This document shows positions 59,757 to 64,000 of a stretch of DNA of 64,000 bases, one piece after another. A program made the position numbers and the translations under genes. Under the pieces are notes generated by a model. It was not told where the DNA came from and searched no databases. It worked only from the letters and a program-made list of their open reading frames with translations. The stretch is from Thozetella sp. PMI_491 (taxonomy: Eukaryota > Ascomycota > Sordariomycetes > Chaetosphaeriales > Chaetosphaeriaceae): positions 1 to 64,000 of the forward strand of contig MU270098.1 in NCBI GenBank assembly GCA_021432635.1, in the 5' to 3' direction. The stretch's first letter is position 1. Each line of letters begins with the position of its first letter.

Positions 59757-61407
59757 ATGAGGCAAGTCGAAGCTGGTTCATCGGGGGGCACAGCCTCGCT
59801 CCAGGGGCCTGTGATCCTCAGCGTGGATGACCAGGCGACCGTTGACGCCAAGGGCCACTGGACCGGCTATCCGAAGCGCTCAGGTCAATGCCTCTCCTAC
59901 TGGCTGCAAGGAGTGCGATGCAACCCCTTGCTAGATCATCGGACAACCCCCGAGCTCCCGCGCTACGCTGACACTGTTATTATCGGCTCAGGTGTGAGTA
60001 AACTATCCAACTCCGTCATCTGCTAAGATGAAGCTCACTAGCTAATGTGGTCGACTAGATTACCGGAACCTTGGTCACGAAACATCATTTGGAGACTTGG
60101 CCGGAGAAAAGCGTGTTGGTGCTCGAGGCACGAGAGTTCTGCAGCGGTGCCACCGGCAGAAATGCAGGCCATTGTAAACCGGATCAGTGTATGTGTTCTT
60201 TCCGTATGTGTGTGGTTGCCTGCCGTCTGATTAACTGAGCAGGGAGAGGCTTCAGTGGCTACGAGAAGGCTTTCGGAACCGAGCGAGCACTTCAGGTAGG
60301 GGCCTCAGATGTGGTAACACAGACTATGAAGCACTCACGGCTAATACACATAAGATCCTGGAGAACGAGCAAAAAACATGGGAAGCCCTTGTCAGTTATG
60401 TCCGGGAAGAAAAGGTGGACTGCGATCTCTGGGTAGGGGACACACTGGACGTGCCTATGACTCAAGAAGTCGCAGCCGCAGCGAAGGACAACTTCGATCG
60501 GTTCAAAGCCGCAGGAGGCAAAACCGACCATATCAAAGTTACTCTTGACCCAACAGAGGCCAGCAAAATTTCACGACTCAAGGGAGCCCAGGCATGCTAC
60601 GCGTGGCCGGCGTCGACCTTGCAGCCCTGGAAACTCACCGCGCACATCATGGGACGAAATCTCGAGAAAGGTCCTAACCTCAACCTCCAGACGCGCACCT
60701 TGGTCAAAAAGGTAGTGCCGAGTAAGGAGCCAGGGAAGTGGGTGGTGCAGTCTGACAGAGGCGACGTTGAGTGCTCCCGCGTTGTCCACGCGACCAACGC
60801 TTATAGCGCAGCTGTTGAGCCTTCCCTGCGCGGGCTGATCACCCCGACACCGCACATGTGCAACAAGGTGGTCCCTCCCGCTGGCTTTGCAGGATCCAAG
60901 GCCCTAAAGAACTCCTACGGGGTGGTGCTGCCCGACGGAGCCCTATTCAGCATCAACCCGCGCTGCACGGCGGATGGAATCGTCATGTTTGGCGGCTCCA
61001 ACCCTGGGCAGAAGGAGTTCGACAAGTGGCTTCGAGACCACCCGGAGAGATGCACCGACGATGGCCTGTCGGGAATTCAAGCCGTCACCAAAGCTGTGAA
61101 GGCGTTTGTAGAGGAACAGTTTCAGGGATGGACCGACGCTCCCTCTGGTCCTGGTGAGCTGTACGACTACAGCTGGAGCGGCATCATTGGACGAAGCGCC
61201 GACGGTGTGCCCTTCATCGGTGAAATTCCGGGTCTGCCGGAACAGTGGATTTGTGCAGGCCATACCGGCCATGGGATGGCTCGAACCTTCACGGCCGGCC
61301 CGGGCCTCGTCCGACTGATGAATGGGGAGTCGTGGGACCACGTCGGACTGCCCGACGCCTACCAGATCACGACGGAAAGAATGCAAAGGCTTGCACAGCA
61401 TATTTAG
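59757..61407 (+). CDS. FAD-dependent amino-acid oxidase-type oxidoreductase (DAO family)
   Basis: Predicted exons are 59757-59993, 60059-60188, 60243-60295 and 60355-61407, giving 490 aa. The Rossmann FAD site reads VIIGSGITGTLV at about residues 74-85, formed across intron 1. The acidic residue that binds the ribose is in VLVLEAREFCSGATGRNAGHC, a hallmark of the glycine/sarcosine/D-amino-acid oxidase fold. The C-terminal FAD-binding part shows YDYSWSGIIGRSADGVPFIG and CAGHTGHGMARTF. The length and plan match fungal DAO proteins that oxidise secondary amines or amino acids; the substrate is not predictable. It converges with the BcABA3-like gene, 169 bp apart. It may or may not belong to that cluster. 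Confidence 0.9.
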
Positions 61408-61576
61408 ACACGGCATAGCATGAAGGACTTGTATATATCTCGCCATATTGCAGTTTACGCTTGCCAGATGATCGATGACTTGATCCGTGCTTCCTGCCCA
61501 GGGAGTGATCCTGCTGTAACTGAGTTGATCCGCCCCGGTAAGATAAGCACAACTCCGACTCACTGTGTGAACAACT

Positions 61577-62830
61577 CTATGATGAAAGCAGTGAGATATT
61601 AGCTGAAGATGGATCGATTTGGGCCAGAATAGGGAAGCCTTTGGTAGTGCGAACGACGACATCCTCCATGTATTCACGCCACTTGTTTTGGCAGCTGTCA
61701 CACAACTGAACCCCGCCGAACTGATGGGATGAGTAGGCGCCGTAAGATGTTCGATACTGGCAGTAATTACATTCCCCTTCTTCGTCCGCCCATAGGAGAT
61801 TGACGAGGCCGGGGTACAACAACTTGGCCTCCCGGTTAACGACATCGACGAAACGGTCGGCTTCAATGGCCTCTCTGCCGGTTGCGTCCATCCGGTTCCA
61901 CAGCTTGAAGTTCTTCCGCGCCTGTTCCACGACATGGTCGGTCTCCGGCCTCCCGATCGTCAAGTTTTCTTCAACGAAGCGGTATCGCCGCATCATCATG
62001 TGGATGGGCCCGCCGAAGAAGCGTATAAAGTTCACGACGTACAGGTGCGCTGGACTCTTCGCCCACGCAGCATCTAAGGCCCAGAGAAGCTCGCGGCATC
62101 TGCGGTAGTATTCGCCGCGGACCTCATGCGGAAAATAGGCAAAGGTGCTGTTGGTCTCGCCCTCCGTGCGGTGCTTGTAAAAAGCGACCGAGTCGTAGAG
62201 CACAGCCGAGAGCTCGGCGAGAGCTTCCCACTCGGTTTCGCTGAACCAGGTATCGCAAAAGTCGTTGGCAGATAAGGCAGCAGCGGCGGTGAAACGAATA
62301 AGAGCGTCACAGTCGCGTAATCGGAACCAATCGCGTGGCGAACGAGCTAGGGCATTAACGTAACGGCGGAAGAGCTCCGAATCCCGGCGATGGCACGCCT
62401 TCTCGGCGGTGAAGAGAAGGTAGGCACGATACTCCCGGCCCATAAGCTCATGACCTGGAGTGTCGCCATAGCAGCCGTCGATCAGATCCTGTATATTGTA
62501 GCCCAGGATGTCGTCGGTAACCACAATATCGACCAAGTCGCCGCGGAACTCGGCTACGATGCCAACGGCGACAATGCGTACGAAGGAGATGTAGCGGCCC
62601 CAGTTGGTGTACTGCGGGATGACACACCTTGTGTATTCCCATGCACAAGCCAGTGTCTCGGCGATGACTTCCGGAGACAGACCTACTCCCTCTAGGTCCT
62701 GATCGAAGTCTGTCGGAAAATGCCAGACATCACGGGTTGTAGGCTGCACGCCGGACTTATCAGCCAGTCTGCGGTCGGTATCAGCGACATACTCGGCACG
62801 GGCGGGGATTTCGTGATTTTGTAGCGTCAT
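61577..62830 (-). CDS. aba3-like: BcABA3-like sesquiterpene synthase (alpha-ionylideneethane synthase type)
   Basis: This single-exon gene encodes 417 residues from MTLQNHE; an in-frame ATG ten codons earlier is less likely. From memory it matches the Botrytis BcABA3 family in TWYYP-like VWHFPTDF, ACAWEYTRCVIPQYTNW (about residue 57), VGIVAEFRGDLVD, TPGHELMGREY and AVAFYKHR-type SVAFYKHRTEGETNSTFAY. It also matches in FGGPIHMMMRRYRFVEENLTIG (about 270) and a C-terminal double CxxC (about 355 and 377). BcABA3 turns farnesyl diphosphate into alpha-ionylideneethane, the first step of fungal abscisic acid synthesis, and lacks the DDxxD and NSE motifs of ordinary terpene synthases; neither is seen here. 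Divergence from a P450 supports a biosynthetic role. The product is unproven. Confidence 0.8.
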   Translation of the reverse strand: MTLQNHEIPARAEYVADTDRRLADKSGVQPTTRDVWHFPTDFDQDLEGVGLSPEVIAETLACAWEYTRCVIPQYTNWGRYISFVRIVAVGIVAEFRGDLVDIVVTDDILGYNIQDLIDGCYGDTPGHELMGREYRAYLLFTAEKACHRRDSELFRRYVNALARSPRDWFRLRDCDALIRFTAAAALSANDFCDTWFSETEWEALAELSAVLYDSVAFYKHRTEGETNSTFAYFPHEVRGEYYRRCRELLWALDAAWAKSPAHLYVVNFIRFFGGPIHMMMRRYRFVEENLTIGRPETDHVVEQARKNFKLWNRMDATGREAIEADRFVDVVNREAKLLYPGLVNLLWADEEGECNYCQYRTSYGAYSSHQFGGVQLCDSCQNKWREYMEDVVVRTTKGFPILAQIDPSSANISLLSS

Positions 62831-63562
62831 GATTGCGCAATATACCAGAATAGCCCACACTCAACGCTGTGGCGCTCTTACCTCCTGCTTGGTGGGTCTT
62901 AGGGCCTGCGAAGGCATTTATACTCGATCCGAGCATTCCATTTCCGAATCAAGACCTGGTCTGTCGAGCTAGCGGAACAGGCATGCAAGCCACCGGGGGC
63001 GAAGGATGGCTACTGAACAGGAATAGCCGATAAAGTCGCCCATGTACGCACGTCCATCCCATACCGTGGATATATGCTAGACCTACTGATACTGGCATAG
63101 AACAGTCCGATAAAGGAGCTTTTCTGCGAAGCTCGACCCGATACGAGTCGAAGCTGCGGTAAAGGATAGCCTTGGCGGCAAGGTTCCTCTGGACTGAGAA
63201 AACTTCGACAGTTCCGACGATGTATCGCTTGTGTCTGCCTAGTTAGCCACGTCTAGACTACAGAGGTGGCGTCTGGGGTCGCCGACCGAGTTTCTTGCGA
63301 CCCCGAGGTCTGAGTGGGCGTGTCTGTATCAGAATTGAGAGGTCCCCGCAAGCAAAGCTTCCGAGGTGCTCGACCACAGATGGAGTTACGGATGGGGCAG
63401 TTCTTCGCAAATAGGAAAAAACGTGCGCGATCTGACACTGCGGCATGTAAATAGGCGGTCGGAGAGACAGGCATATATCCTCCTAGGAAACTAGCTCCCT
63501 CGAACTAGGGGTGTAGCATTTACTCTTGCCCGACTAAGTTTGGAGTAAACCACTGAATATCA
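62831..63562. promoter_or_regulatory. Shared divergent promoter region, terpene synthase-like gene / P450
   Basis: This 732 bp separates the two start codons and has no supported gene; minus-strand frames at 63253-63474 lack features. Bidirectional control of the synthase and the P450 is likely, as is common in fungal clusters. I assigned no specific regulator site. Confidence 0.5.
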
Positions 63563-64000
63563 ATGGATTCTACGACCACTGCTGTTACAATTTGGTCGCT
63601 GTGCGCGACAACCGTTTTATGCCTATGGCTGGGCTACCTGGTCGCAAGTCGTCGCTACTTCCACCCTCTTTCCCATGTGCCCGGTCCGTTCTTGTGGGCA
63701 GTGTCCGGGCTACCCATCTTCTACCACCAGCACTTCAGAGAGGGCAATCTCATTCATGCCCTCATGCATCTCCATGCAACTTATGGTAAGCCTCACACCT
63801 TTCGCTATCGTGGGAAGACTGGCTCACGCACCGCTGCTGTTTGTAGGGCCGGTGGTTCGAATCTCACCGACCGAAGTTCACTTGAGCGATCCGGAGAATT
63901 ATGACAAGATCTACAATATTGGTTCCAAGTTTCTCAAAGACCCCGGCTACTACAGCCCTATCGTCACTGCGCTCACATCGCCGATTCTCTTGACCGTCAT
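63563..64000 (+). CDS. Cytochrome P450, 5' part (cut by the window end)
   Basis: Exon 1 is 63563-63785 and exon 2 starts at 63847 and runs off the window. The 125 visible residues show a membrane anchor (LCATTVLCLWLGYLV), then FHPLSHVPGPFLW, the proline-rich hinge of microsomal P450s. GPVVRISPTEVHLSDPENYDKIY after the intron is the typical fungal helix A/strand 1 region of CYP58- and CYP65-like enzymes. The heme-binding part lies outside the window. The gene diverges from the BcABA3-like synthase, so it is a candidate for oxidising that enzyme's product, as P450s do in abscisic acid synthesis. Family assignment beyond P450 is inference. Confidence 0.85.

Follow-up and report, generated by a model that had tools for sequence, protein, structure and literature searches.

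The window, a stretch of 64,000 nucleotides, covers bases 1-64000 of contig C84 (253,375 bp) in a genome of 72.3 Mb and 157 contigs. Its right-hand end holds three adjacent genes, encoding a FAD-dependent oxidase, a homologue of the Botrytis cinerea sesquiterpene synthase BcABA3, and a cytochrome P450 (herein P450-X) that runs past the window edge (Table 1). Gene models were predicted from the DNA sequence, either by hand splicing or as database models. Splicing and family matches placed all three genes where the initial annotation had put them, and the distance it gave between synthase and P450 was exact to the base. The last exon frame of the oxidase scored 62.6 bits against Pfam DAO, and the P450 scored 203.4 bits against Pfam p450. 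The hand-spliced P450 model uses one GC-AG intron, at which spot the database model P0121 (516 aa) is spliced otherwise and a few residues are absent. The oxidase and synthase genes are arranged tail-to-tail with their ends 169 bp apart, while synthase and P450 diverge from a common intergenic region.

Table 1 Coordinates of the features on contigs C84 and C37 and at one bacterial locus.
Feature	Position	Strand	Details
FAD-dependent (DAO-fold) oxidase	C84:59757-61407	+	4 exons, 490 aa, hand splicing
ABA3-type sesquiterpene synthase (BcABA3 homologue)	C84:61577-62830	-	single uninterrupted frame, 417 aa, intronless
Divergent intergenic region, synthase/P450	C84:62831-63562	.	732 bp
P450-X gene, 5' part inside window	C84:63563-64000	+	continues to C84:65361
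P450-X exons	C84:63563-63785, 63847-64400, 64458-64810, 64877-64990, 65058-65361	+	5 exons, 515 aa
P450-like stretch	C84:29344-30748		~31 kb left of synthase
NB-ARC and TPR frames	C84:77605-81742 (L002:4605-8742)		
C37 ABA3/P450-X/ABA1-like P450 locus	C37:266374-274160 (loci L016, L017)		proteins P0035, P0124, P0241
C37 ABA3 homologue	C37:266374-267570	-	
C37 P450-X	C37, from about 269.2 kb	+	
C37 ABA1-like P450	C37, from 272284	+	
C37 short-chain dehydrogenase (SDR)	about C37:280159-281186		
L007 region with the second ABA3 homologue of Umezawaea endophytica	L007:8821-14585		homologue immediately follows a class I terpene synthase gene

An ABA3-family synthase outside the BcABA3 clade

The alignment to BcABA3 that the initial annotation had proposed is a good one: over residues 33-402 the window synthase shares 58% identity with BcABA3, and its E-value against the BcABA3 crystal sequence (PDB 8zac) is 1.7e-157, so the match is not due to chance. 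It agrees with the solved ABA3 enzymes in both sequence and fold, including SkABA3 of Shimazuella kribbensis (PDB 8zaf, 8zag). A pattern scan found no match to DDxxxD, NSE, DxDD or strict DDxxD, in line with the earlier description of a homologue devoid of DDxxD and NSE motifs; the looser patterns D[DE]xx[DE] and [ND]xxx[ST]xxxE each matched once, at residue 349 (DEEGE) and residue 190, respectively. The protein keeps 80 of the 83 highly conserved family columns, departing at three (family median 1, highest 8), and has all four C-terminal family cysteines (C354, C357, C377 and C380). Judged from its sequence, it is a true ABA3-family synthase, and its divergence from a P450 gene makes a terpenoid locus likely.

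Within the family, the window synthase lies outside the clade in which a Botrytis-type synthase would be expected. In a 124-row tree it was excluded, with a support of 99, from a 64-row clade holding BcABA3, its Plenodomus counterpart, Mycena, Colletotrichum and others, and the same split was recovered with a support of 100/99 in a 63-row tree built with a more careful search. Both trees were midpoint-rooted, and we used only the split.

P450-X and its recurrence with ABA3 homologues

With three ABA1-like proteins, of which two bear the ABA1 name from a source, the window P450 shares no more than 24-25% identity and hence is not the ABA1-like P450 of a Botrytis-type cluster. In a 54-row tree it fell into a separate clade of 24 proteins, P450-X, with a support of 100/100; some of its relatives outside this clade are annotated as trichodiene oxygenase or benzoate 4-monooxygenase. 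No Botrytis protein was found among the best 120 of its 251 relatives. In Colletotrichum, the ABA1 and ABA2 P450s form one large monophyletic group with the BOT P450s, as stated in the cited part of PMC10482981, which hints that the window P450 may likewise not be of the ABA2 type. Its N-terminus is hydrophobic, as is typical of a membrane anchor.

We defined a pair type as an ABA3 homologue outside the BcABA3 clade adjoining a P450 of the 24-protein clade, which is what the window holds, and tallied by hand the joint listing of the two families in the best 120 of 348 synthases, the best 120 of 251 P450s and both trees. Among the matches listed, P450-X was present in 8 of the 11 named fungal species with a synthase outside the BcABA3 clade and in none of the 39 named species or strains with a BcABA3-clade synthase (Fisher p 3.1e-7, a value that makes the link look too strong, given the non-independence of species and the use of best-120 lists). 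The three species without a listed P450-X were Lasiosphaeria hispida and two Coniochaeta species. For five of the eight carriers, again among the matches listed, both proteins came from equally long contigs: Thozetella (where the DNA itself shows the two genes to be adjacent), Apodospora peruviana, Mollisia scopiformis, Trichoderma arundinaceum (78,601 bp, with a P450 fragment of 398 aa) and Aphanocladium album (6,541 bp, where the locus tags PWT90_10764 and PWT90_10765 follow each other). The contigs differed in Cercophora scortea, Podospora appendiculata and Naviculisporaceae sp. PSN 640, and in P. appendiculata the synthase (P0064) and an ABA1-named P450 (P0244) were instead on equally long contigs. 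The family pairing thus recurs across species, and the tally is a strong hint, though not proof, that P450-X is tied to synthases outside the BcABA3 clade; in some genomes the P450 could be a chance neighbor of the synthase.

The window locus and its sister locus on C37

A search of the genome recovered two ABA3 homologues, the second of which lies on contig C37 (664,661 bp), is 57% identical to the window synthase and 62% to BcABA3, and likewise falls outside the BcABA3 clade. As in the window, it stands head-to-head with a P450-X gene (57% identical to the window P450); unlike the window, the next gene is a P450 whose relatives are named ABA1 in UniRef, and an SDR gene follows ~6 kb beyond it with other genes between, while a counterpart of the FAD oxidase was not found in a 40-kb stretch surrounding the C37 pair. 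Three proteins recorded for Thozetella sp. PMI_491 (Chaetosphaeriales, Sordariomycetes) map to C37, and we accordingly assign the genome to this strain: P0035 matches C37 at 100% over 399 residues, P0241 is 100% identical to the hand splicing, and P0124 has exon matches of 95-100%, save for one 75% alignment stretch that reads across an intron. By gene content, C37 is the more ABA-like of the two loci. The two divergent regions had no motif in common beyond chance (one shared 10-mer versus 2.0 expected).

According to the cited parts of PMC6876084 and PMC4227169, the Botrytis genes bcaba1-4 suffice for abscisic acid (ABA) production in yeast, with BcABA1 leading to alpha-ionylideneacetic acid, BcABA2 to the 1',4'-trans-dihydroxy acid, and the SDR gene bcaba4 being involved, albeit not essential. 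The initial annotation had taken the right-hand end of the window for the edge of a possible ABA-like cluster and pointed to the sequence right of 64000 for a second P450 and an SDR. We queried C84:1-93000 by tblastn (E up to 0.01) with 11 SDR and 6 P450 sequences, a set made up of proteins other than BcABA1, BcABA2 and BcABA4 themselves, using the C37 region as a control. Neither an SDR nor an ABA1-like P450 was detected in C84:1-93000, while the same queries recovered all three genes sought in the control region, one SDR and two P450s. The only other P450-like stretch in C84:1-93000 is 25% identical to the window P450 (Table 1). Features to the right of the window P450 comprise an alpha/beta hydrolase, an MmgE/PrpD gene, and NB-ARC and TPR frames that perhaps form one fungal NOD-like receptor gene; no further pathway genes were recognised up to C84:93000.

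The cluster-edge reading was therefore not borne out, given the P450 group and the place of the synthase. The window shares with B. cinerea the synthase family and fold, a P450 adjoining the synthase and, as far as the cited part of PMC4227169 describes it, an intronless synthase gene; it differs in that B. cinerea has two P450s and an SDR, whereas the window has a P450 of another group, no SDR within C84:1-93000 and a synthase outside the BcABA3 clade. The ABA-BOT cluster of Colletotrichum tofieldiae, in the portion of PMC10482981 cited, likewise joins an ABA3-type synthase to P450s in a plant-associated fungus, although its ABA1 and ABA2 P450s group with BOT P450s, while for the window P450 the comparison extended to ABA1-like proteins. 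AncA of Antrodia and Sanghuangporus has also been proposed as a start of ABA-related sesquiterpenoids in fungi, but is described in the cited part of PMC12001456 as a HAD-like two-domain enzyme.

We consider it fairly probable that the window locus is not a Botrytis-type ABA cluster and is instead a two-gene unit for a sesquiterpenoid of the ABA3 kind. For the pair's substrate, product and regulation we infer that the synthase would use an ABA3-type reaction to convert farnesyl diphosphate to a C15 hydrocarbon, that the head-to-head P450-X, putatively membrane-anchored, would oxidise this hydrocarbon, and that the 732-bp region may regulate both genes jointly. Since C84:1-93000 lacks both an ABA1-like P450 and an SDR, and P450-X belongs to another P450 group, the pair probably makes a sesquiterpenoid other than ABA. 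The earlier suggestion that the product could differ from ABA hence probably stands, owing to the P450 and the synthase lineage, whereas the route it had offered, through the oxidase, is weak.

That route would make the oxidase, synthase and P450 a three-gene cluster, with the terpenoid, or an amine attached to it, as the substrate of the oxidase. The adjacency of the genes and the 169 bp between the ends of oxidase and synthase speak for this, but the tail-to-tail order gives these two no shared promoter, the family matches of the oxidase are to amine-type oxidases and far below curated cut-offs, and no counterpart lies in the 40 kb surrounding the C37 pair; we regard such a cluster as very unlikely. 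Because of these weak amine-type matches and the missing C37 counterpart, we treated the oxidase as a neighbor, and it is probably a bystander that is not part of the unit.

A division of labor between the two Thozetella loci, with the window pair and C37 together making ABA or a close relative, is unlikely. In its favor, the two synthases are 62% (C37) and 58% (window) identical to BcABA3, and the C37 neighborhood includes both a P450 with ABA1-named relatives and an SDR. Weighing against it, both synthases lie outside the BcABA3 clade, P450-X differs as a group from the ABA1-like P450s, other genes separate the C37 ABA1-like P450 from the SDR, and that P450 is itself only a putative BcABA1 counterpart. 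The scarcity of recognisable pathway genes around the window pair would also fit a non-functional leftover of an ABA cluster, which we nevertheless hold to be highly improbable, as both frames are intact, the synthase departs at just 3 of 83 conserved columns, the P450 is not ABA1-like and the pairing recurs in other species.

ABA3 homologues in bacteria and the breadth of the family

ABA3 enzymes are already known from bacteria (SkABA3). One scan of a genome collection for ABA3 homologues gave seven loci, and of the genomes searched family-wide (E 1e-30), 4 of 390 and 2 of 354 carried it, so the gene is rare. We counted nine actinobacterial loci in eight genomes, leaving out L008, a locus from a metagenome-assembled genome labelled Deltaproteobacteria whose ABA3 homologue has low third-position GC and groups with fungal-side proteins; it is probably eukaryotic contamination. 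As in the window, the ABA3 gene is paired with a P450 gene, directly upstream on the same strand, in five of the nine loci (L004, L005, L006, L032 and L033, from five genomes, Actinoplanes and Umezawaea among them). Unlike the divergent promoter of the window, the ABA3 start codon overlaps the P450 stop by 4 bp in all five. Such an overlap usually indicates translational coupling, and we found no description of P450-ABA3 coupling in bacteria among the open-licence ABA3 papers listed. The five P450s are 68-79% identical to one another and not close to P450-X, to which they are unrelated beyond the superfamily. That of L005, the only one scanned against NCBIfam, most resembles pentalenene oxygenase (352 bits, short of the model cut-off of 800). 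No P450 heme motif was found at L009, L010 and L034, where some of the frames were scanned further. At L007, two class I terpene synthase genes and a squalene-hopene-cyclase-like gene lie beside the ABA3 homologue, which is the second of the Umezawaea endophytica genome (Table 1).

Similarity to BcABA3 is easily taken as a sign of ABA production, and alone it is poor ground for predicting ABA. The window, the C37 locus and the bacterial operons point to a synthase family that is wider than ABA and was paired with different oxidases more than once. We give an even chance to the broader view that ABA3-type synthases found a whole class of small sesquiterpenoid pathways, each coupled to a P450 and with ABA as just one outcome, in which a dedicated P450-X serves as partner in one fungal lineage and actinobacteria independently joined another, translationally coupled P450; Thozetella, with two diverged copies, may then make two signal molecules, ABA-related or unrelated. 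The two-gene systems, one fungal and one bacterial, offer simple routes to new sesquiterpenoids.
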